A DNA stretch of 64,000 nt from Thermoplasmatales archaeon E-plasma. Its GTDB lineage: Archaea > Thermoplasmatota > Thermoplasmata > Thermoplasmatales > Thermoplasmataceae. The notes beneath the pieces were generated by a model that did no database searches, was not told the origin of the DNA, and saw nothing but the letters and a program-made list of their open reading frames with translations. The translations under genes and the position numbers were made by a program. Below are positions 2,717 through 59,901 of this stretch, in pieces (position 1 is the first letter of the stretch; each line of letters starts with the position of its first letter). Location of the stretch: assembly GCA_000496135.1 (NCBI GenBank), contig KI542674.1:310001-374000 (forward strand). Reading direction: 5' to 3'.

Positions 2717-3658
2717 ATGGAAGAAGAAAAAAGTAAGAAAAAGAGTTTTGAACAGATAGAAAAGTGTCCGGAATGTGGATCGACTCAATTAGTCAGAGAT
2801 TACGAAAGAGGAGAATTAATATGCAATAACTGCGGAATAGTTATTGATGAAAGCTTCATTGACCAGGGACCAGAATGGCGTGCTTTCGATTCTGAACAGA
2901 ATGAATCCAGAGCAAGGGCTGGATCTCCTATGACATTTACAATACATGATAAAGGTTTATCCACAGATATCTCATGGAAAAACAAGGACTCATACGGAAA
3001 ATCAATTCCAACCAGAAACAGGGCTCAACTATACAGGTTGAGAAAGTGGCAGAAGAGAATTAAAGTTTCGAACGCAGCTGAAAGAAATCTTTCACAGGCA
3101 CTGCAGGAAATGGAAAGAATGGCCTCTAATCTAAGTATTCCAAATGATGTTAGGGAAACTGCAGCTGTGATTTACAGAAGAGCAGTTAAACAAAACATGA
3201 TCAGAGGAAGAAGCATTGAGGGAGTTGTTGCAGGTTCTCTATATGCAGCATGTCGTATTACCAATGTGCCCAGGACTCTTGATGAAATCTCTGCCATTAC
3301 GAGAGTTAAGAAAAAGGAAATTGGAAGAACCTATAGAATTATGAGCAGATATCTGCAGCTAAATATCATGCCTTCAAAACCGGAAGATTATCTGAACAGA
3401 TTCTGCAGCAGACTAAAACTTTCAATGGAAACAAGAAAAAAAGCAGCTGAGATTATTAAAATGGCTCAAGATGGAGATTTAACATCAGGCAAAGGCCCAA
3501 CAGGTGTTGCAGCTGCTGCAATATATATTGCCTCTATTATCACTCAGGAAAGGAGAACACAGAGATCCGTTGCTGAAGTCGCTGGCGTAACTGAAGTAAC
3601 AATCAGAAACAGATACAAAGAATTAACAGAGAAACTGAGTCTGGAGGTTCAGGAGTAA
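2717..3658 (+). CDS. tfb: transcription initiation factor IIB (paralogue 2)
   Basis: A 313-residue TFB with zinc ligands Cys17, Cys20, Cys36 and Cys39, a B-finger ([21 protein letters not shown]) and two cyclin repeats. The recognition helix of the second repeat ([11 protein letters not shown]) matches that of paralogue 1, so both should read similar BRE sequences. It follows gar1 with a GGGGTGG ribosome site in the 19-base gap. Its stop codon touches the stop of pcc1 on the other strand. Confidence 0.95.
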
Positions 3659-3676
3659 TTAATCTCCTAATTTTTC
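3651..3676. terminator. possible two-way terminator between tfb and pcc1
   Basis: AGGAG and CTCCT flank the eight bases that contain both stop codons, giving a short hairpin, followed by T-rich sequence on the plus side. The stem is only five pairs, so this is a weak call. Confidence 0.3.
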
Positions 3677-3901
3677 CATCTTTTTTATGACGTCGTAGGA
3701 TTTCAACAATTCATCAGCCAGCGAATAAACAGACGTAACTTTTATACTTTTGAAGCTATAAATAAGCAAATCTTCTTCCATGTCAATTTTTACCATATTT
3801 TTATCTTCCGGGCCGGTCGATAAACTTAAATTCCGAAGTATTGTTTTTTCGTCTGAAAATGAGACTCTCATTTCGATATTGGACATTTTCCCTATTAACA
3901 T
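3659..3901 (-). CDS. pcc1: KEOPS complex subunit Pcc1
   Basis: An 80-residue protein with the Pcc1 pattern: an early strand, a middle LSLSTGPEDKNMVKIDMEEDLL segment and the closing SIKVTSVYSLADELL helix that forms the dimer. Pcc1 supports KEOPS in making t6A37 in ANN-decoding tRNAs. The alternative start is Met6. It is convergent with tfb without any gap. The short length and divergence of the family leave some doubt. Confidence 0.7.
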   Translation of the reverse strand: MLIGKMSNIEMRVSFSDEKTILRNLSLSTGPEDKNMVKIDMEEDLLIYSFKSIKVTSVYSLADELLKSYDVIKKMEKLGD

Positions 3902-3944
3902 ATGATAAAACTATATAATTCTCTCTTACAATCAGGGTAACTGA

Positions 3945-4029
3945 GCGGAGGTTGCCGAGCCAGGTTAAAGGCGACAGACTCAAGATCTGTTTCCGTTGGG
4001 ATGCGCCGGTTCGAATCCGGCCCTCCGCA
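3945..4029 (+). tRNA. tRNA-Leu(CAA)
   Basis: The acceptor stem GCGGAGG/CCTCCGC closes with discriminator A at 4029. The anticodon stem ACAGA/TCTGT holds loop CTCAAGA, giving anticodon CAA. The long variable arm and the T arm GGTTCGAATCC fit a type II leucine tRNA. A TATATAATT element lies some 25 bases upstream. Confidence 0.95.
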
Positions 4030-4053
4030 TACCTATTTTGAAATGCATAATTC

Positions 4054-4453
4054 TCATTCCCAGATTACTTCGAGACCGTGTACCTTTCCAGAGACAGGAT
4101 CGTTTGAAATGAGAGCTAAACCTCTCGCGATTGTCTCTACTGCTATCAACCTGTCATGAAGTTCTGGAATATTGAGTGATAGAAAAATATCCCATTAAGC
4201 CTCTGGAAAATTTGATTGCGATATAAAAAATGCGGATCTTATTTGATCCAAAGCTTTCTTAACAGCATTCTTCGGATTGGATAATCTTAGCCTCCCTTTC
4301 ATTCCAATATAAACCAATTCTCCGATTACAATCTCCGGTTGGATAATAGAAGCCTTCCCTCTTTAAGTTAGAGAAAATACATCTGATGGCTGACCAGGCA
4401 AATTATCCTCCGAATATCTGGCTAACCCAACTGTGTCGGTTATGAAGCTTTTT
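4054..4453 (-). pseudogene. vapC: decayed VapC-type PIN-domain toxin
   Basis: Directly after the vapB-like stop, the minus strand reads as a PIN-domain protein: SFITDTVGLARYSEDNLP, then in another frame QPEIVIGELVYIGMKGRL, and at the end LHDRLIAVETIARGLALIS followed by a NDP-like segment. The conserved first Asp and the late HDR...A...LIS.DP motif are visible. The frame is broken by an early TAA, a frameshift and another TAA, and has no standard start codon, so no active toxin can be made. VapC proteins are ribonucleases. Confidence 0.75.
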
Positions 4454-4454
4454 A

Positions 4455-4679
4455 CTACTTCCACTCTTTTCTTAAGTTTTTAATGTTTTTCTCGAATCCT
4501 TCTGTACCCACTTTGCCTTTTAATATACCTCTCAAAGTCCCATTGCCATGTTTGATAATAATGCCTTCCCCGGAATCTGATACGATTACACTTTTTCCAT
4601 AGCTCATGTGGTATTTATCTCTCAAGACTTTAGGAAGCGTAATCTGGTGCTTTGAATTAATCGTAACTTTTTTAACCAT
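4455..4679 (-). CDS. vapB: AbrB/SpoVT-type antitoxin (VapB-like)
   Basis: A 74-residue protein beginning VKKVTINSKHQITLPKVLR, the classic swapped-hairpin AbrB DNA-binding fold. The C-terminal half (TLRGILKGKVG...NIKNLRKEWK) is typical of VapB tails that block a VapC partner. The toxin gene immediately downstream is degenerate, so this antitoxin is now orphaned and may persist as an autorepressor or by lack of time for loss. Confidence 0.8.
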   Translation of the reverse strand: MVKKVTINSKHQITLPKVLRDKYHMSYGKSVIVSDSGEGIIIKHGNGTLRGILKGKVGTEGFEKNIKNLRKEWK

Positions 4680-4813
4680 ATGAAATACATGTGCTTTTTC
4701 CCATATTTGCTTTATTTAAGGTAAAGAATTATTAGTGTAAATGTTGCAATTCCACATATATATTGTCCAGTAGCTGACGCGTTCACTCAAAAAAAAGGCA
4801 ATTCTATTATAAC

Positions 4814-5623
4814 ATTTCAGGATACGATTTTACGTTAACAGACATTCAAATTATTCTGTCCATAATTTCGGGAATTCTTGTTGGATTTTCCCTTGGGTTA
4901 ATAGGTGGAGGAGGTTCAATCCTTGCTATTCCTCTACTTATATATTTTGTGGGATTTGATCACCCTCATATTGCCATAGGAACAACTGCTCTGGCTGTCG
5001 GTGTAAATGCCTACCTTAACCTCATACCGCACACTTTGAAAAAACATGTGGATTATAAGATTGGAATTGAATTCACTTTACCTGGAATTGCCGGAGTTCT
5101 TATTGGATCAGAACTCGGCCTTATGACACCAGGAGATGATCTGTTATTCTTTTTCAGTTTCCTCATGATCGGTATAGCTGTCTATATGCTGAAGAGAAAA
5201 TGTGTTGATATGTCCCAGATCGAAAGGAAGGTTGAAAGGACCTCAAAGTCATTTGCAATCCTGATTTTAACTGGTTTTATAGTTGGATTTGCCTCAGGTT
5301 ATTTTGGTATTGGAGGAGGATTTCTCATAGTACCCGGCCTCCTGTTTGGAGGGGGGCTCAATATTCTTCAGGCCGTGGGCACATCTCTTCTATCTGTGGG
5401 CACCTTCGGGGTAATAACCGCTGGAAGATATGCCATAAGTGGTGATCTCAACATTATAATCGCAGCTCTGTTTGTCGTGGGAGGAGTATTCGGTGGCTGG
5501 ATTGGTTCAAGGCTGGCAGGCATGGTTCCAAAGAGAAGGTTAACCCAGATATTTGCCATAATTGTAATTCTGGTAGCATTTTATATTATGTATCAGAACT
5601 ACACTGTTATATTCCATCTGTGA
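4814..5623 (+). CDS. TauE/SafE-family membrane permease, start codon unclear
   Basis: A sulfite/anion exporter-type permease with about eight membrane segments in two repeats. The repeat signatures are GLIGGGGSILAIPLL near the start and YFGIGGGFLIVPGLL in the middle; TSLLSVG and GGWIGSRLAGMVP also fit. The frame is open from 4778, but the first codon that is ATG, GTG or TTG is GTG at 4949, which lies after the first membrane helix and first signature. Either a rare start such as ATT near 4814 is used, or the 5' end is mutated. The substrate is unknown. Confidence 0.7.
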   Translation: MSGYDFTLTDIQIILSIISGILVGFSLGLIGGGGSILAIPLLIYFVGFDHPHIAIGTTALAVGVNAYLNLIPHTLKKHVDYKIGIEFTLPGIAGVLIGSELGLMTPGDDLLFFFSFLMIGIAVYMLKRKCVDMSQIERKVERTSKSFAILILTGFIVGFASGYFGIGGGFLIVPGLLFGGGLNILQAVGTSLLSVGTFGVITAGRYAISGDLNIIIAALFVVGGVFGGWIGSRLAGMVPKRRLTQIFAIIVILVAFYIMYQNYTVIFHL

Positions 5624-51128: not shown

Positions 51129-51572
51129 TCATAATTTCTTACTCGTATTTTTTGAAATTTCACTTAAAACATCTTTGCATAATAATACTGCCTTTTTAGA
51201 AGGTTCCATATATTTCAGAGCAATTTTTTCAAGGCTTTCTTCATCTATATTATAATTGAATGTGTATCCACTGGTTTGACGGTTGCCAAGCAGTTCAGGA
51301 AGCAGGGACCTTACCATTTCCTTTATTTTATCTCTATTAAGTTTTGATATTTTTTGGGAATTAACAATATTGTTTTCCACAATTTCAATTATGTTATGAT
51401 TTTTTGGTGGTTCAATACCAAGTGCAAACAGGACAGCTTTGAGAGATATCTCAACAGCCATTTCTTCGCTGTACAAACATGTATTATATACCCCCTCCTT
51501 TGCCATTGTTTCGGCCGTTTTAATCCAGCTTTCTGCTGTCTCCATGGCCTTCTCTGATATTCCTATTCCCAT
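51129..51572 (-). CDS. HEPN-domain protein
   Basis: A 147-residue all-helical HEPN protein: AMETAESWIKTAETMAKEGV, CLYSEEMAVEISLKAVLFALG, and the ending EKIALKYMEPSKKAVLLCKDVL. These are usually RNases or toxins paired with a nucleotidyltransferase. The typical Arg-x4-6-His is not clear (NRQTSGYTFN instead), so the activity is doubtful. It overlaps the nucleotidyltransferase gene by ten bases. Confidence 0.8.
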   Translation of the reverse strand: MGIGISEKAMETAESWIKTAETMAKEGVYNTCLYSEEMAVEISLKAVLFALGIEPPKNHNIIEIVENNIVNSQKISKLNRDKIKEMVRSLLPELLGNRQTSGYTFNYNIDEESLEKIALKYMEPSKKAVLLCKDVLSEISKNTSKKL

Positions 51573-52147
51573 ACGAGCATTTCACCTGATTTTGTATTTT
51601 TACGTTTATGCTTGATCTTTGCAATTTTATCCAGAAATTCAGAAACTGTGCTTCCACGTTGAAAAAGAACTATTCCGTAATCAGCTATTTCAAAGTATAA
51701 CGGATTTAGGACTTCCAGATCTGCAGGCGTCAATATGAGCGGACTTATAAATAGTGACAGGCCTCTTTTTATCAGTATATCCTGATATGAATTTACCTCC
51801 CTTCTTTTCAAATTTAAATACTCCTGGTATTCGATGAATTTAGAGTCTGTTATAATGGCTAAATCAATATCACTAAATTTAGAAAAACTGTTCTTTGTAA
51901 TGGAACCATAAAGTATTACACCCAGTGTGTGAGGATTTTCATCTATCAAGTCCACAAAACGCATTATGTAATTTTTTATATCCTGATCCATTTTCAACAG
52001 GGTAAGTTGCTTCCCTGCAGTTTGTTTTATAACCTCTGTGAAAGAACTTCGTCTGCCCGTAATTTGCTCTATAATTTGCTTAAATTCACTTAGTTCTGAA
52101 TATGCTTCTTCAGTGAGCAGGGTCTGCTTGAATTTTCCCATAATCAT
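51563..52147 (-). CDS. MNT-type nucleotidyltransferase (HEPN partner)
   Basis: A 194-residue protein. Residues 1-55 form a helical region with RRSSFTEVIKQTAGKQLTLL that looks like an antitoxin DNA-binding start. Then VILYGSITKNSFSKFSDIDLAII gives the GS-x9-D-x-D active site. In MNT/HEPN pairs this protein AMPylates and silences the HEPN toxin. Met3 is a possible start. Confidence 0.82.
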   Translation of the reverse strand: MIMGKFKQTLLTEEAYSELSEFKQIIEQITGRRSSFTEVIKQTAGKQLTLLKMDQDIKNYIMRFVDLIDENPHTLGVILYGSITKNSFSKFSDIDLAIITDSKFIEYQEYLNLKRREVNSYQDILIKRGLSLFISPLILTPADLEVLNPLYFEIADYGIVLFQRGSTVSEFLDKIAKIKHKRKNTKSGEMLVWE

Positions 52148-53388: not shown

Positions 53389-53496
53389 TTGAAAAGAAGT
53401 TCAAGGGACTGGAAAAAACGCGGAAACATGCGATGGAAGTGGAGAAAGAAGAGAATCCGAAGGCTGAAAAAGCAGAGAAAGGCTAACAGAACGTAA
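53389..53496 (+). CDS. rpl41e: ribosomal protein L41e
   Basis: A 35-codon frame starting at TTG behind GGGGTGA. The second part, [19 protein letters not shown], is the L41e sequence, a single basic helix at the subunit interface. The ATG at 53428 gives the classic size of 22 residues; the TTG start, favoured by the ribosome site, adds a basic extension of 13. It ends one base before tRNA-Trp. Confidence 0.75.
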
Positions 53497-53636
53497 GGGA
53501 GCATGGGGTAGTCAGGCATCCTATCGGGCTCCAGTCAGGGTATGTTTAGCAACGGGTCATCTGATTCATGATGAGTGACTGGAACTAAGAACCGGGAAGA
53601 GACCCGCAGATCTGGGTTCAAATCCCAGTGCTCCCA
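53497..53636 (+). tRNA. tRNA-Trp(CCA) with intron
   Basis: Acceptor GGGAGCA/TGCTCCC with discriminator A, anticodon CCA at 53531-53533, T arm CTGGGTTCAAATCCCAG. The anticodon stem CGGG/CCCG is separated by 67 extra bases (about 53535-53601), the canonical 37/38 intron position. Splicing leaves 73 bases. The integrase gene overlaps the second half on the other strand. Confidence 0.93.
53535..53601 (+). ncRNA. tRNA-Trp intron with box C/D-like guide features
   Basis: The intron holds CTGA (53561-53564) followed by TGATGAG (53569-53575), an internal D'/C' pair. CGGGTC before CTGA pairs with GACCCG of exon 2, and the fifth base upstream of CTGA faces C39, a position known to be 2'-O-methylated by haloarchaeal tRNA-Trp introns. 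GACTGGA (53577-53583) pairs with TCCAGTC around the anticodon. Outer C and D boxes are not clear. Confidence 0.6.
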
Positions 53637-54548
53637 TTTGGTCGCAACTGCTCCCGCGGGAATTTGATCCTCAAGAGTCATTTTCTCACTGCCACGAAAA
53701 AGCTTCTCGACAGCGAGTTTTCCCTTTTCCGCTGCTTCTTTTGAGGACAGGTGTTCGTATATAGTTGTGGTCTCAATGCGGGCATGTCCCAACAGAATTT
53801 GTACCATCCTTAGATCGTTCGTGGTTCTATACATATTCGTTCCGTAGAAGTGTCTGAACGAATGGGCATGGAGTTCCGGCATCCCTGTCTTTATTCCTAT
53901 CTTCTTGATCATGGTCCTGAGATAAGTATATGGCATTCTTCCTTGATCACTTGTGAAGAGAGATCTCTGATCAGATTGCATTCTGTAATTTTTGATATAT
54001 CCTTCCAACCTATTCAAGAAATCATCTGGAAGAGGAACATATCTATCTCTTTCTCCCTTCTCGGATCTGATATAAAGCATTCCCTCTTTGATGTCTTCCA
54101 TGTTGACTTTTTGCATTTCTCCTATTCTCATGCCTGAATATGCAAGGATTTCGATATCAAATCGGTTACGAAGCCACACCTCTTTATTATGATGGGAGTC
54201 ACAAAATTTAAGGATCCTTTGCAGCTGATCAGTTGTTGGGAGAAATGGATCCGGAGAAGGTTCTTTTTTTAGCCTTGGAGTGGATGTCTGGAATCCAAGG
54301 AAACGATACCAGTATTGCAGGTCCATCATTTCAATCCTCAGAGTCTTTTTCTTTATTCCATCCCTCTGACGTGATTCAATATACGAGTATAAGGCCTTGA
54401 TATCCGGTTTTGAGATATCAATCCTTGAATCAAGGAACCTTATCCTTCTTGCTCTTCTTTCTGCTGTTTGGAGGGCATCTCCTTTTCCTACTCTCTCAAG
54501 GTAAAAATCATTCAATTTTAAATCAAGATCTGGAACATTCTCACTCAT
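53535..54548 (-). CDS. int: tyrosine recombinase (integrase)
   Basis: 337 residues from the ATG that overlaps the upstream stop (ATGA); a further ATG 18 bases up is less likely. The N-terminal part is a SAM-like core-binding domain. Catalytic residues are Arg141 (YSGMRIGE), the HSFRH box with Arg232, His255 (LLGHARIET) and Tyr264 (TTTIYEHLS). The last 33 residues, from WEHWDLNPDLRVSS on, are the antisense reading of tRNA-Trp, and its stop lies in the tRNA intron. The gene is complete in the integrated state. Confidence 0.9.
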   Translation of the reverse strand: MSENVPDLDLKLNDFYLERVGKGDALQTAERRARRIRFLDSRIDISKPDIKALYSYIESRQRDGIKKKTLRIEMMDLQYWYRFLGFQTSTPRLKKEPSPDPFLPTTDQLQRILKFCDSHHNKEVWLRNRFDIEILAYSGMRIGEMQKVNMEDIKEGMLYIRSEKGERDRYVPLPDDFLNRLEGYIKNYRMQSDQRSLFTSDQGRMPYTYLRTMIKKIGIKTGMPELHAHSFRHFYGTNMYRTTNDLRMVQILLGHARIETTTIYEHLSSKEAAEKGKLAVEKLFRGSEKMTLEDQIPAGAVATKWEHWDLNPDLRVSSRFLVPVTHHESDDPLLNIP

Positions 54549-54904
54549 CTCTGCACCCCGTTCCATTTGGGAAGGAATAAACTTCTTCCTTTGGCATACT
54601 GATAACCCACCGATTCCATTTCTTTACACAAATTTTTAAAATCATCTACCTTGGATGGAATTCTTATCTTTTCTCCATCGATTTGAAGATCATATTTTGA
54701 AACGATCGCCATAAGACCTTGATTCGTTCCTTGTCCAGGTTTTTCTTCAGGTTTACCAGAGGTCCACAATCCAAATGGCTGAATTGCTCGATCCATCAAC
54801 AACCTGGTTGCCTCTCCGTTTAATTTTCCAGATGCTTTGATTTTCTCATCCACAGTCTCCATCCTTCCAATCATTTCATCAACCCATTTCGAAAAATCAT
54901 TCAT
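54545..54904 (-). CDS. element protein upstream of the integrase, not recognised
   Basis: About 119 residues from Met at 54904 (54922 is also possible). It reads as helices (MNDFSKWVDEMIGRMETVDE) then DLQIDGEKIRIPSKVDDFKN. Its stop overlaps the integrase ATG (ATGA). No known family. Confidence 0.55.
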   Translation of the reverse strand: MNDFSKWVDEMIGRMETVDEKIKASGKLNGEATRLLMDRAIQPFGLWTSGKPEEKPGQGTNQGLMAIVSKYDLQIDGEKIRIPSKVDDFKNLCKEMESVGYQYAKGRSLFLPKWNGVQR

Positions 54905-55152: not shown

Positions 55153-55313
55153 CTCAATACCTCAGAATGCTTATGTTTCAGATGATTAGAACGAGATTTC
55201 ACAGTTACTATGTGTTCACAAAAACCACATCTATAATGTGGTTGAGTCTTTCCGTTCTTCCCTGCATAAGTGAAAAAATTGTTTGAGTCAAAATACTTTC
55301 CTTGGTAAATCAT
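55149..55313 (-). CDS. C2H2-like zinc-finger protein, 54 aa
   Basis: YRCGFCEHIVTVKSRSNHLK, then HKH, gives Cys-x2-Cys, 11 residues, and His-x2-His-x-His, the plan of a single C2H2 finger with a basic recognition helix. Such mini-fingers are common on archaeal plasmids and viruses as DNA-binding regulators. Its ATG overlaps the preceding stop and its stop overlaps the next ATG. Confidence 0.65.
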   Translation of the reverse strand: MIYQGKYFDSNNFFTYAGKNGKTQPHYRCGFCEHIVTVKSRSNHLKHKHSEVLR

Positions 55314-55531
55314 TGAGAAACACCTTCGTTAAATCTGATTGGAGATCTTCTTCCAAACTTCCTCAATGTCTTACCTTTCATGTTCCTTGTTGCACAAAGG
55401 TATTTTTCCAGAATATCTGATTCAGGAATCACATTTTTTAGGTTCTCCAGTGTTCTTTCGATTGCTAATAGATCAACAAAATCATGATACGTTCGGGATC
55501 TCTTTCTTTCCTTTCGAGCATTTGGGGACAT
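55310..55531 (-). CDS. basic element protein, 73 aa
   Basis: MSPNARKERKRSRTYHDFVD starts a basic protein with a middle helix (LAIERTLENLKNVI) and the ending RKFGRRSPIRFNEGVSQ. The ATG overlaps the stop of the membrane peptide (TAATG) and follows GGAGG at 12-13 bases; the frame extends further upstream, but that part is the antisense of nothing known and collides with two better genes. Confidence 0.5.
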   Translation of the reverse strand: MSPNARKERKRSRTYHDFVDLLAIERTLENLKNVIPESDILEKYLCATRNMKGKTLRKFGRRSPIRFNEGVSQ

Positions 55532-55638
55532 TAAATTCTGCCTCCGAGAAAAACATAAGACAGTGAACCAACTATGACAACAAACACAGTTGAAACAAGA
55601 AGGAACATCTGCACCATCGATAAAATGAAATTCCTCAT
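55531..55638 (-). CDS. cassette A membrane peptide, 35 aa
   Basis: MRNFILSMVQMFLLVSTVFV and VIVGSLSYVFLGGRI: one hydrophobic helix with a short start and a basic end. The ATG sits in the stop of the RHH gene (GGCATGA) behind GAGGTTGAGGC. First membrane gene of the five regulator/membrane cassettes. Confidence 0.55.
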   Translation of the reverse strand: MRNFILSMVQMFLLVSTVFVVIVGSLSYVFLGGRI

Positions 55639-55793
55639 GCCTCAACCTCTTGCTTGTGAGGGTGCTCATTACAACCTGCATATGCTTTCACGCACAATCT
55701 TACCGCATGAGAGAAATTTGCAGCGGTTCTGCTCTCAACCAAGCCTTTAAGGAATTCAAATTCATCTCTTTCAAGAGAAATACTAATCTTCAT
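55635..55793 (-). CDS. cassette A ribbon-helix-helix regulator, 52 aa
   Basis: MKISISLERDEFEFLKGLVE, then SRTAANFSHAVRLCVKAYAG: beta strand, helix, turn, helix of the CopG/RHH fold, which dimerises to bind operators. The C-terminal HKQEVEA is encoded by the same bases that form the ribosome site and start of the membrane gene. It is divergent to the cassette B regulator 109 bases away and heads the chain that ends in the integrase. Confidence 0.65.
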   Translation of the reverse strand: MKISISLERDEFEFLKGLVESRTAANFSHAVRLCVKAYAGCNEHPHKQEVEA

Positions 55794-55902
55794 CTTCCTA
55801 CCTTCACTTACCAAGTCATACCACTTCCATTAATAAATATTCTTACTTTACCATACTTTAGAGCAAGAATTGAAAAGTATATCCTTTTCCTACCAAGTAG
55901 CA
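55794..55902. promoter_or_regulatory. divergent control region between cassettes A and B
   Basis: 109 bases holding four copies of a TACCA word: TACCAAGT (55809), TACCACTT (55819), TACCATAC (55849) and TACCAAGT (55891). Offsets from the first copy are 10, 40 and 82 bases, near whole turns of the helix. They are candidate RHH half-sites. Confidence 0.45.
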
Positions 55903-56049
55903 ATGAAGAAAAAAGTCTCAGTGGCCATAGACGAAGATCTCCTGATCTGGGTCGAAGACCAGATTCAGAAGAAGCGATTTGCCTCCGTTTCCCATGCAGT
56001 GAATTATTCACTGAATGAAGTGAAAAAGCAAGGAGAGAAACTCTCATGA
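55903..56049 (+). CDS. cassette B ribbon-helix-helix regulator, 48 aa
   Basis: MKKKVSVAIDEDLLIWVEDQ, then IQKKRFASVSHAVNYSLNEV: a complete RHH domain and little else. Its stop overlaps the ATG of the membrane gene (ATGA). Confidence 0.65.
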   Translation: MKKKVSVAIDEDLLIWVEDQIQKKRFASVSHAVNYSLNEVKKQGEKLS

Positions 56050-56369
56050 AGTATCCCGATAAGGTTGCTTTCCTTGTATTGCTTATTGCAGGTTTTCTGT
56101 ATGCGCAGTATCTTATGGGGAGTGCCGCATGGATCCAATTGTTCGGCTTTCTTCCCCTACCATCATCCCAGTATGTAAACGGTTTGCTTCTTGCAATTGC
56201 TTGCATTGTTCTCGTTTCCTTAGATATCATGTCTATAATTGATCCGAATTGGAAATTGTTCAAGTTCATCTTCTTCTCCTCAGAGCAAACCCTGCCTTTA
56301 GAAAGAAAACAACTACCAGGAAAGTCAGGGCTCCCTCCGAAACCAGCGCAAAAACGAAAAAGATCTTGA
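56046..56369 (+). CDS. cassette B membrane protein, 107 aa
   Basis: Two membrane helices (VAFLVLLIAGFLYAQYLMG and YVNGLLLAIACIVLVSLDI) separated by a short outside loop, then a basic tail of about 35 residues ending KRKRS. The last 104 bases are antisense to the 3' end of the cassette C membrane gene. No family recognised. Confidence 0.6.
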   Translation: MKYPDKVAFLVLLIAGFLYAQYLMGSAAWIQLFGFLPLPSSQYVNGLLLAIACIVLVSLDIMSIIDPNWKLFKFIFFSSEQTLPLERKQLPGKSGLPPKPAQKRKRS

Positions 56370-56472
56370 ACTGCCTGACTTCCAAGAGATAATATCCCAT
56401 GTATATTCCCGTTTCCATGCAGAGAATGAACAGGATAGCCCAGTTGTAAGGCCACTTTATTTTCAATCTCAT
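56266..56472 (-). CDS. cassette C membrane protein, 68 aa
   Basis: MRLKIKWPYNWAILFILCME begins the first helix; the second is IFFVFALVSEGALTFLVVVF; the end is FALRRRR. It starts at the ATG immediately after the RHH stop. A longer frame from the preceding ATG (222 codons) runs antisense through cassette B and shows no protein character. Confidence 0.6.
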   Translation of the reverse strand: MRLKIKWPYNWAILFILCMETGIYMGYYLLEVRQFKIFFVFALVSEGALTFLVVVFFLKAGFALRRRR

Positions 56473-56646
56473 TCATGCCTCAACCTCCTTCTTGTGGGGC
56501 TGCTCTTCAAGGGCAATAGACCTGATCTTTTCTCTCACGGCTTCTATAATAAACTCACTACGATTTCTGTATCCCATCTTGCTCTCGGAAATTGCCTTTT
56601 CAACGCTCTCTATAAGACTATGTGGCAATTTGATAGTGTCATACAT
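56473..56646 (-). CDS. cassette C ribbon-helix-helix regulator, 57 aa
   Basis: MYDTIKLPHSLIESVEKAIS, then YRNRSEFIIEAVREKIRSI: a clear RHH protein. Met at 56646 follows GAGGGAAAAAGG; an ATG at 56673 would add nine residues. The tail HKKEVEA repeats the A and E ending. It is close to the cassette D regulator in the second helix (YRNRSEFI.EA.REK.RSI). Confidence 0.72.
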   Translation of the reverse strand: MYDTIKLPHSLIESVEKAISESKMGYRNRSEFIIEAVREKIRSIALEEQPHKKEVEA

Positions 56647-56763
56647 CCTTTTTCCCTCATTGTTGCTATACATTACTAATTCATTCCCCCTATTAAATTG
56701 TTGTCATACATTACAACTGTCTTACTCCCAAGTGTTAATTTCTTTATGGCATAATTGCTATGT
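56647..56763. promoter_or_regulatory. divergent control region between cassettes C and D
   Basis: ATACATTAC occurs twice (56668-56676 and 56706-56714), and the inverse GTATGG/GCTATGTAT lies at the cassette D start. AT-rich elements for both directions are present. These repeats are candidate operators of the two related RHH proteins. Confidence 0.4.
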
Positions 56764-56925
56764 ATGGCAACCCAATACACCACAGTCAAGATTCCTGACC
56801 CTATTCTTGAGCGGATAGAGGAGATTATTCGATCACATCCAGAGTATGCATACCGTAATCGTTCTGAATTCATCGTAGAGGCAATACGAGAGAAGGTAAG
56901 ATCTATTGAATCAAGGGAGAAGTGA
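56764..56925 (+). CDS. cassette D ribbon-helix-helix regulator, 53 aa
   Basis: MATQYTTVKIPDPILERIEE, then YRNRSEFIVEAIREKVRSI. A paralogue of the cassette C regulator on the opposite strand, with the same strand-helix-helix layout. It lacks the EVEA ending. Confidence 0.72.
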   Translation: MATQYTTVKIPDPILERIEEIIRSHPEYAYRNRSEFIVEAIREKVRSIESREK

Positions 56926-56931
56926 TTAACC

Positions 56932-57147
56932 CTGGATGACAAGAAATTACTGAACTTAGGAATAATTCTAATTATTTTAGGTATAATTTTGTTACCCGCA
57001 GGATACTTTATGACTTCATTCCTTGTTTCCATTGGAATTACCTCCTATTTTGTCACTATTGAGGCATTTACTTACCTCGCGGTTGCAACCCTCGTCGTTT
57101 TTGGTTCCTATCTTATTATTGACTCTAAAATCCTCAAGAGAAGGTGA
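56932..57147 (+). CDS. cassette D membrane protein, about 71 aa, non-AUG start
   Basis: In frame with the RHH gene after its TGA, the frame opens with LDDKKLLNLGIILIILGIIL and has a second helix (YLAVATLVVFGSYLIID), ending KILKRR. No ATG, GTG or TTG stands before the first helix; CTG at 56932, six bases after the stop, is the likely start, or the two may be linked by readthrough. The 3' half is antisense to the cassette E membrane gene. Confidence 0.5.
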   Translation: MDDKKLLNLGIILIILGIILLPAGYFMTSFLVSIGITSYFVTIEAFTYLAVATLVVFGSYLIIDSKILKRR

Positions 57148-57381
57148 AGTCTTGATTTCTTTCACGGGACGCAGGTAACTATAATACAAAGAAACTAAGA
57201 TCAAATAAAGAAAAAGCGAAAAAACAAATCCTGCGACAATCTCATAAAAATTCATAGGACGAAATTGATATTTTAAAGGAGAATTACGAGACATCCATTG
57301 ATAAAACAATGAATCTAAATATGCGCCAATATCTGTAAATATAGCAAGAATAAGACTGATGACTAAGATTCTCCGATTCAT
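57016..57381 (-). CDS. cassette E membrane protein, 121 aa
   Basis: MNRRILVISLILAIFTDIGA gives the first helix; VAGFVFSLFLYLILVSLYYS the second; a hydrophilic, Asn- and Lys-rich tail of 50 residues follows. The ATG overlaps the AbrB stop (GGCATGA) behind GGAGGTTGAGGC. The last 132 bases are antisense to cassette D. Confidence 0.6.
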   Translation of the reverse strand: MNRRILVISLILAIFTDIGAYLDSLFYQWMSRNSPLKYQFRPMNFYEIVAGFVFSLFLYLILVSLYYSYLRPVKEIKTSPSLEDFRVNNKIGTKNDEGCNREVSKCLNSDKIGGNSNGNKE

Positions 57382-57563
57382 GCCTCAACCTCCTGTTTGT
57401 GTGTTTTTGTTTGATGATCTGCCGACTCCTCTTCGTCTCCCTTTAAAACCTCCCGAATGTCAACAATGAGTCGGTCTCCTTCATGGATATTCAATTTTTT
57501 ACGAATATCCTGTGGGATTTGCCCTCGTCCGGCTATTCCCATTTTTATTATAGTTTGAATCAT
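57378..57563 (-). CDS. cassette E AbrB-type regulator, 61 aa
   Basis: IIKMGIAGRGQIPQDIRKKL and NIHEGDRLIVDI form an AbrB/SpoVT DNA-binding domain of about 45 residues, then an acidic linker and the tail THKQEVEA shared with RHH cassettes A and C, though the folds are unrelated. It is divergent to the winged-helix gene across a region with a 20-base repeat. Confidence 0.78.
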   Translation of the reverse strand: MIQTIIKMGIAGRGQIPQDIRKKLNIHEGDRLIVDIREVLKGDEEESADHQTKTHKQEVEA

Positions 57564-57574
57564 GGCATATCACA

Positions 57575-57594
57575 TTTGGCAATAATGCCATATG
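57575..57594. repeat. 20-bp palindromic repeat, copy 1
   Basis: Identical to 57618-57637; contains TGGCA-ATAA-TGCCA. Confidence 0.8.
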
Positions 57595-57617
57595 TATAGA
57601 AAGATATAAACTTATTG

Positions 57618-57637
57618 TTTGGCAATAATGCCATATG
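57618..57637. repeat. 20-bp palindromic repeat, copy 2
   Basis: Identical to 57575-57594. A ten-base partial match (TTTGGCAATA) also occurs at 59101-59110. Confidence 0.8.
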
Positions 57638-57685: not shown

Positions 57686-58195
57686 ATGGACGTCTTGGAT
57701 CTGAAACATTCTAAATCTCTTCTCATAGAATTGAGACGAATTGGAACTGCTAAGAAATCTGATTTATTTTCGATTGTTAAGAGTCATCATATCCTTGATA
57801 AGGTGTTGAAAGCGCTTGAAGATGGTGGTTTTCTCACCGTTGAAGTTAGGAAACTTGGTCCTCCGGTATATACAATTGCCTTAACAAATAAAGGTAAAGC
57901 TGTCGCTGAACAACTAAAACGAGCTGAAGAGATATCCCAAGGTAAAACTTTCACATTTCCGGATAAATTCGCAATCATTTCTTATTTGTCTGACTCAGGA
58001 CACGTTACATTATCTCAATTGAAGGAACGATATCCGGATGCCTTGGATATCATAAGGGAATTTGAATCAATGAAGGTAATAAGGCAGGAGATCGATAATT
58101 CGAAGCATCCGCCGATTAATCGGATTGCATTAACGGAGAAAGGAGAGAAGATTGCGGAGTATTTGCAGAAGATTGAGGAGATTTTGAAGGGGTGA
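57686..58195 (+). CDS. double winged-helix regulator, 169 aa
   Basis: Two winged-helix domains in tandem. The first: KHSKSLLIELRRIGTAKKSD, wing PPVYTIALTNKGKAVAEQL. The second: KFAIISYLSDSGHVTLSQLK, wing INRIALTEKGEKIAEYLQ. The repeated ending (IALT.KG..(A/I)AE.L) shows internal duplication. It heads a plus-strand run of three genes and faces the AbrB gene. Confidence 0.7.
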   Translation: MDVLDLKHSKSLLIELRRIGTAKKSDLFSIVKSHHILDKVLKALEDGGFLTVEVRKLGPPVYTIALTNKGKAVAEQLKRAEEISQGKTFTFPDKFAIISYLSDSGHVTLSQLKERYPDALDIIREFESMKVIRQEIDNSKHPPINRIALTEKGEKIAEYLQKIEEILKG

Positions 58196-59116: not shown

Positions 59117-59218
59117 TCAAATAAGACCGAATGCCAACATCAGAAGGATTATCCCAGCCGCCATCATAAAATATGACAGCACAAGGGTGTAGTCAATCTT
59201 CTTCTTTGTGGAATGCAT
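59117..59218 (-). CDS. single-helix membrane peptide, 33 aa
   Basis: MHSTKKKIDYTLVLSYFMMA followed by AGIILLMLAFGLI: a basic start and one membrane helix. Similar in size to the cassette A peptide. Confidence 0.45.
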   Translation of the reverse strand: MHSTKKKIDYTLVLSYFMMAAGIILLMLAFGLI

Positions 59219-59238
59219 AGATAATCTATCCGAATGGT

Positions 59239-59522
59239 CTATTTATTCTTTTCTTCTTCCTTGTGGAGGTAGAGAGCAATGCCGCCACTCACCAGGCCGA
59301 CTCCTATCCACGTCTCTCCAGCTGCGATCTGGGCGAACGAGAAAAGATCTATTATTCCAATAGCAGCAGGTATGGAAAATACCTCAAATGCTGCAAGGAG
59401 AGATAGAAGAATTAAAGCAAACCGCTGAGAGCATAGATTAGCATCCCTATACCAATAATCATCATGGCTATGGACGCTATCCCTACATATGGGTTTCTCC
59501 TTTCAGTATTGTTAGATCTCAT
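59239..59522 (-). CDS. small membrane protein, frameshifted or two genes
   Basis: The first frame (59412-59522) encodes MRSNNTERRNPYVGIASIAM and one helix, stopping after 36 codons. The other frame continues from there with LILLSLLAAFEVFSIPAAIG, another helix and the ending YLHKEEEKNK, but has no standard start codon. A single shift near 59410-59420 gives a three-helix protein of about 95 residues. Confidence 0.45.
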
Positions 59523-59547
59523 TAGTTATAGAATACGTGTGAATTTA

Positions 59548-59901
59548 TTAATATTTCCCTCTTGAAAACCAATCGCTAAATGTCATGAATCCACCAATGA
59601 ATACTGCCAAAGCAGCAAGTAGCCACCAAATATCAGCAGCGGATTGCCCTGCATAGTTAAATTGATCCGTAAGAGCGGTTCCAAGAGGAGTGATTAAGGC
59701 AGCTATACCTGCGAGTACTGCTATAAGCAGTATTGTACCATATTTTATGCCGTTGTCTTCAGAATCCTCTTTAATGTAGACTTTCCCTGTCACTTTCTTT
59801 GTTTGAGGACTTTTGACAACACCGCTGTATGTTTTTGGTTTCTTATTACTGCTGCTTTTGGAATTTGTCTTTCCATTTTTCTTATTGCTGTTTCCGCTCA
59901 T
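59548..59901 (-). CDS. two-helix membrane protein with Lys/Asn-rich start, 117 aa
   Basis: The first 50 residues are rich in Lys, Asn, Ser (NSNKKNGKTNSKSSSNKKPK). Two membrane helices follow (YGTILLIAVLAGIAALITPL and IWWLLAALAVFIGGFMTF) and a basic end. Double-helix hydrophobic proteins of this size occur as virion membrane or coat proteins of archaeal viruses, but nothing specific identifies this one. Confidence 0.55.
   Translation of the reverse strand: MSGNSNKKNGKTNSKSSSNKKPKTYSGVVKSPQTKKVTGKVYIKEDSEDNGIKYGTILLIAVLAGIAALITPLGTALTDQFNYAGQSAADIWWLLAALAVFIGGFMTFSDWFSRGKY

Follow-up and report, generated by a model that had tools for sequence, protein, structure and literature searches.

Stacked regulator and membrane gene units with a repeated translation-coupling junction in an integrated element of Thermoplasmatales archaeon E-plasma

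The genome of Thermoplasmatales archaeon E-plasma carries an integrative element at a tRNA-Trp gene, which we analyzed within a stretch of 64,000 nucleotides (GenBank assembly GCA_000496135.1, contig KI542674.1, positions 310,001 to 374,000 of the forward strand; hereafter the window, to which coordinates without a locus name refer). Between positions 55531 and 57563 the element contains five pairs of a small predicted DNA-binding protein and a small hydrophobic frame. Three of the regulators end in a common junction sequence, here called J, and the arrangement suggests that units of regulators and membrane genes have been added at this junction. The first-pass annotation of this DNA had described five cassettes in alternating orientation, a layout that holds for the position and strand of all ten frames, with the reservation that one membrane frame lacks a normal start.

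Cassette A, on the reverse strand, consists of RHH-A (55635..55793; 52 residues, ribbon-helix-helix (RHH)-like, with the C-terminal tail HPHKQEVEA) and TM-A (55531..55638; 35 residues, one transmembrane (TM) helix). Cassette B, on the forward strand, contains RHH-B (55903..56049; 48 residues) and TM-B (56046..56369; 107 residues, two TM helices and a basic tail), and cassette C, on the reverse strand, RHH-C (56473..56673; tail QPHKKEVEA) and TM-C (56266..56472; 68 residues, two TM helices). RHH-D (56764..56925; 53 residues) and TM-D (56932..57147) form the forward cassette D. The reverse cassette E comprises the AbrB/MazE-type master regulator AbrB-E (57378..57563; 61 residues) and TM-E (57016..57381; 121 residues, two TM helices). 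Regulator and partner overlap by 4 nt (ATGA) in cassettes A, B and E and abut in cassette C. The regulator starts of A/B and of C/D face each other, and the convergent membrane genes overlap at their tails, by 104 nt for TM-B/TM-C and 132 nt for TM-D/TM-E. Cassette D is weaker than the other four, as TM-D follows in the frame of its regulator behind one TGA and lacks an ATG, GTG or TTG close to the regulator stop. It could start at a CTG at 56932, which gives two TM helices, or at a TTG at 56989 (52 residues, one TM helix), or be produced by readthrough.

The frames were compared with dinucleotide shuffles of the downstream DNA, scoring frame length plus the number of TM segments, counted from the given starts. 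None of 2000 shuffles reached the values of TM-B, TM-C, TM-D (from the CTG) or TM-E, and those of TM-A were reached by a fraction of 0.005. A single-sequence AF2 model of TM-C is one long helix and is uninformative on the two TM segments.

The regulators had been assigned to the RHH fold in A to D and to AbrB in E, and profile searches support these calls to different degrees. RHH-D is a solid RHH protein (Pfam RHH_1, above the gathering cutoff) and RHH-C a good candidate (RHH_1, E = 0.011; NCBIfam YlcI/YnfO, 31.8 against a cutoff of 30). AbrB-E appears to be an AbrB/MazE protein at the cutoff (MazE Pfam, E = 8e-5; TIGR01439, 28.2 against 28.3, just short of the AbrB cutoffs), and the call for RHH-B is weak (ParD-type, E = 0.029). 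For RHH-A, which has no match among the Pfam, NCBIfam and PADLOC models and none at E ≤ 0.001 in a fold search of the PDB, the assignment is only plausible; its single AF2 model shows an N-terminal stretch followed by helix-helix (pLDDT 70).

Regulators A, C and E, despite their different folds, end in a common junction of 24–33 nt that combines a Shine-Dalgarno sequence, the stop codon and, overlapping it, the start of the following gene (consensus CACAAnMARGAGGTTGAGGCATGA, encoding the tail HK.EVEA). The copies at 55635..55658 (CACAAGCAAGAGGTTGAGGCATGA), 56473..56496 (CACAAGAAGGAGGTTGAGGCATGA) and 57378..57401 (CACAAACAGGAGGTTGAGGCATGA), all on the reverse strand, are direct repeats spaced 838 and 905 bp apart. 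These three are the only copies in the whole genome, shuffled sequences contain none, and a search of 400 genomes of the class with the window pattern returned only chance-like or single-junction matches elsewhere. Because the AbrB and RHH folds are unrelated, a tail common to both must either have arisen by convergence or have been spread through recombination or copied during insertion, and simple gene duplication does not account for it. The idea that the cassettes are copies, with the membrane genes of the window as paralogues, was ruled out, since the membrane proteins show no convincing similarity to each other. A longer frame of 222 codons that starts at J in cassette C, antisense to B, was likewise set aside in favor of the second ATG, which gives a clear two-TM protein. 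Read in operon direction, the order is AbrB-E, J, a first unit (TM-E forward; TM-D and RHH-D reverse; RHH-C forward), J, a second unit (TM-C forward; TM-B and RHH-B reverse; RHH-A forward), J, TM-A, the operon and the integrase. This anatomy is directly visible and would correspond to two stacked units inserted between AbrB-E, as the master regulator, and the operon of the integrase.

Each divergent region has repeat words of its own. The A/B control region (55801..55898) contains CCTTnnC.TACCAAGT twice, the C/D region (56659..56771) contains ATTGTTGnnATACATTAC twice together with an inverted copy, and TTTGGCAATAATGCCATATG occurs between E and a winged-helix gene (57575..57637) as two identical copies 43 nt apart. 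The longest word shared by any of the three regions is 10 nt (C/D and E), so that the cross-regulation of the cassettes proposed in the first-pass annotation is not supported. Most simply, each divergent regulator pair probably represses itself through its private operator-like repeats. The membrane proteins would then be switched separately, and their convergent, overlapping ends would make forward and reverse expression antagonistic. Repeat words are also found in the control regions of two elements described below, as TTACGCCAT/ATGGCGTAA copies in L106 and as TATGTTAC.TGTAACACA-like copies in L032.

That this is a mobile element, as had been assumed, is supported by its position. The tRNA-Trp gene (53495..53636, forward), which has a long intron, was read from the sequence by eye after being missed by ARAGORN in the bacterial setting; it forms the attachment site and the chromosome-side end. 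The adjoining tyrosine integrase (53535..54566, reverse; PHROGs integrase, E = 2e-35; NCBIfam XerA-like, E = 3e-40, below the cutoff) has its C-terminal codons antisense to the 3′ half of the tRNA. Up to 53636 the chromosome flank is nearly identical in congeners. Two of these, G294 and G375, resume their match at approximately 61.9 and 61.1 kb and lack the intervening segment at the same tRNA site; because both flanks match and the segment between them does not, we assign approximately 7.4 kb to the element. Overlapping the integrase gene is the gene for the 119-residue A4 protein (54545..54904, reverse), a marker of the element family with a 52% identical homologue in L032; A4 is present in 9 of the 400 genomes and was not found among plasmids. 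The ATG of a 73-residue operon gene (55310..55531, reverse) overlaps the stop of TM-A (TAATG), and this gene is the probable original head of the operon. On the other side, the winged-helix regulator (57686..58195, forward; PHROGs transcriptional regulator, E = 1.5e-8) is divergent from AbrB-E across the master control region and is 42–59% identical to genes at the same position elsewhere (A2 alignment). An Rfam search of the element returned nothing.

The same anatomy, each time with an element-specific J, recurs in L032 (genome G190), L146 (G375) and L106 (G158, from another family), which span two genera of the same family and one other family. The similar stacks point to a recurring way of adding genes in the order. 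In L032, J occurs three times, spaced 489 and 563 nt apart, within a family of 58-nt repeats at 83–88% identity that reaches into the next gene; in L146, J (TGTGGGGGTTCAGGCATGAA) occurs twice. In both elements the master regulator and a first J are followed by a reverse and then a forward regulator, a second J, one or more forward membrane genes, a convergent reverse membrane gene, a junction and the operon, and an A4 protein adjoins the integrase. L106 begins with a regulator, a junction, a reverse RHH gene, a forward RHH gene, J and a forward TM gene, followed by a reverse TM gene with a VapB-type RHH regulator, a forward regulator, J, a forward TM gene, the operon, the integrase and tRNA-Pro. 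Among 4978 pairs of coupled junctions at 55 loci, identities of at least 20/24 were found only in the window element, L032, L146 and L106; widening the scan to 175 loci added one further element, L054. Junctions of forward regulators have a mean best match of 19.2/24 within elements against 13.9/24 across elements, an excess reached in 0 of 20000 label permutations (p < 5e-5), which holds for elements gathered by homology searches and taken as given and is not a genome-wide rate. The components are more widely distributed: five other genomes from the family (L028, L029, L030, L031 and L033) have a relative of AbrB-E divergent from a winged-helix relative, and C/D-type RHH genes form divergent pairs, approximately 100–130 bp apart, in many genomes of the order.

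Two comparisons identify the junctions as payload boundaries. All J copies of L032 contain MEHKKISE, the eight codons with which the operon gene next after the regulator begins in L161 (in L030 this gene starts with the same codons with one change), and one copy now heads a membrane gene, which therefore begins with the codons of another gene, as expected if the target junction was duplicated. Secondly, the close relatives G228 and G170 (L113/L198, L114/L199) share a control region of 918 bp at 94% identity that ends at the stop codon of the forward regulator. Beyond it lie 0.4–1.4 kb in which the genes differ almost completely; from the ATG of the next core gene the two are again 90% identical, a natural payload swap. 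An autonomous unit between backbone genes that is absent in relatives is seen in L032 versus L161, L146 versus L124, and G228 versus G170. In L054, the last codons of the upstream gene (EFAEVSGE) are repeated at the end of a zinc-finger gene within the operon; this zinc-finger gene appears to have entered the operon with a copied junction, which would be duplication without regulators. The genome of this element, G059, contains two element copies approximately 17.5 kb apart (L054, L190, L191) with identical match scores.

We therefore favor, with a probability of roughly 0.6, cassette accretion at coupled junctions, the cassettes carrying privately repressed membrane ‘moron’ genes. The backbone would have consisted of the winged-helix gene, divergent from AbrB-E, followed by J and the operon (the 73-residue gene, a zinc-finger gene, a 50-residue gene, A4 and the integrase). 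Two units inserted at J would have left three copies of J and placed TM-A ahead of the operon, each unit being composed of a forward membrane gene, a convergent reverse membrane gene with its regulator, a divergent forward regulator and J. As J carries the Shine-Dalgarno sequence and the overlapping start, each insertion would keep the next gene coupled. A wider proposal is that integrative elements of the Thermoplasmatales accumulate foreign control cassettes (a repressor pair, its operators and membrane proteins) by recombination at a translation-coupling junction, capturing them without a dedicated recombination site and so stacking immunity or exclusion modules against competing elements; taken as a whole we regard this as tentative and rather doubtful.

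The payload itself varies. Conservation of the membrane frames in related elements, whose absence the first-pass annotation had named as refuting its reading, gave a divided answer: those of the window lack homologues among 77 genomes of the family, but three other elements have analogous genes in these slots, and one reverse-strand TM family (A5) is kept between two of them, L032 and L146. A5 shows 36% identity and 42, 31 and 43 changes at the three codon positions, fewest at position 2 of the membrane frame; beyond these two elements it gave only weak matches within long frames. The membrane proteins searched had no convincing family or toxin match in Pfam, PHROGs, NCBIfam or PADLOC. In other elements zinc-finger or hydrophilic genes are found in the same slots, which makes membrane proteins one kind of payload. 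By analogy with prophage morons, the payload would most likely work as membrane morons of the integrated state. Exclusion of, or immunity against, related elements is a weak first guess at its role, preferred since these orphan genes are small, encode membrane proteins, seem to be repressed separately and reside in an integrated element.

Several points weigh against accretion at J. Neither the right end of the element nor attR was located, the tRNA 3′ end occurring once in the whole genome with no second copy. The coding status of the membrane frames in the window rests on open-frame statistics and analogy, and the function of the payload is a guess. Similarity among J copies is partly functional (Shine-Dalgarno sequence, ATGA), a junction of G020, from another family, matches J copy C at 21/24, and the stacked elements L029 and L117 have no repeated J.

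Five toxin–antitoxin modules stabilizing the element, with RHH/AbrB antitoxins and small membrane toxins, are an unlikely alternative, although regulator size, gene order and the 4-nt overlap are those of type II operons, RHH, AbrB (MazE) and VapB folds are typical of antitoxins, and the element is mobile. Unlike in such operons, the partner is an orphan membrane protein that is not known to be toxic, and the regulators also occur alone: the same kinds of regulator pair stand without a membrane partner in L161, L029 and L117, as does module 1 of L032, which weakens the reading of a dedicated system. The lack of toxin family matches argues in the same direction, and Makarova et al. (2009; PMC2701414) stated that type II systems with a membrane component were undetected up to then.

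Less likely still, the shared tail would be only a conserved translation-coupling signal, the cassettes being independent and nothing having been inserted at J. Most forward regulators of these elements do end in a GAGGTnnnnGCATGA-like signal, and the G020 match fits this view. The identity extends past the signal, however, to CACAA upstream in the window and to the 58-nt repeats in L032, and neither the excess of junction identity within elements nor the breakpoint of the G228/G170 swap at the junction is expected from it. A role of the membrane proteins in the virion or the egress of a small archaeal virus is quite improbable. Proteins with two helices are found in spindle-shaped viruses, which two-TM proteins of 68–121 residues and additional small TM genes at 59117–59901 would match, and CopG-like RHH proteins similar to SSV1 F55 are reported from archaeal proviruses (PMC4158269). 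Against this, none of the element proteins searched had a PHROGs structural match, the integrase, AbrB, A4 and winged-helix queries found no relative in 2.9 million viral contigs, and a private repressor for each gene on opposite strands is not expected of structural genes. Integron-like insertion at J by the element's own tyrosine integrase, suggested by tandem cassettes between direct repeats beside an integrase, is very improbable, as J resembles the tRNA attachment region no better than shuffles do (which also led us to reject an integrase-att origin of J), the integrase scores 67 bits against an integron-integrase cutoff of 265, and J differs from element to element.

Accretion of cassettes at coupled junctions shares features with several known systems. 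Like phage morons and superinfection-exclusion genes, the units would be independent transcription units inserted between core genes of an integrated element, with small, fast-evolving membrane proteins; unlike morons, each comes with a divergent pair of RHH/AbrB regulators encoded on both strands and leaves behind a further copy of a translation-coupling junction, and exclusion is only proposed. Integron gene cassettes also lie in tandem between direct repeats, whereas here there is no integron integrase, the cassettes bring regulators, and the repeat is a ribosome-binding junction. F55-type RHH repressors of SSV1 are likewise small regulators of an integrated archaeal element, but here several private divergent pairs are stacked in one control region. 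Membrane loci of archaeal dark-matter islands, too, have variable small membrane genes in integrated archaeal DNA; as far as the excerpts of PMC4158269 go, these variable cassettes are linked to ABC transporters, and RHH pairs or junction repeats are not described. The parts are thus familiar, while the arrangement, stacking with junction repeats, appears undescribed: we found no system of this kind in the open-access literature, which leaves out most subscription journals. Regulators stacked with small membrane genes are a recurring layout of archaeal mobile elements, and the repeated stop, ribosome-binding site and start would explain how genes can be added to a tightly overlapping operon while the gene that follows is still translated. 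Any genome can be searched for this signature, through which the orphan membrane proteins of a mobilome that has hardly been studied become candidates to be tested for exclusion, immunity or toxicity.

Some further features were observed in related loci and around the cassettes. L108, L109, L110 and L118, from several genomes of the family, contain a conserved divergent RHH pair (YKDVKIP/WKDIKIP) without coupled downstream genes. A winged-helix regulator fused to a C-terminal RHH domain (EEYVNEAVRKAIEKWK..HAVG) is encoded in L029 (4108-4506), L030 (5421-5813) and L032 (82-501 of the reverse complement of 2900-5061). In one congener only the final portion of an integrase, 95% identical, remains beside tRNA-Trp (L150 1-1030; G258:C172), apparently cut by an IstB-like insertion sequence. 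The small membrane genes in the right part of the element (59117–59901, reverse) encode 33, 36 and 117 residues, the last without a family match. Outside the element, at 51129–52147, two overlapping small genes encode a nucleotidyltransferase-like protein (PADLOC PDC-S09 matches) and a HEPN-like partner; together they may be a HEPN/MNT toxin–antitoxin pair of the classical type.

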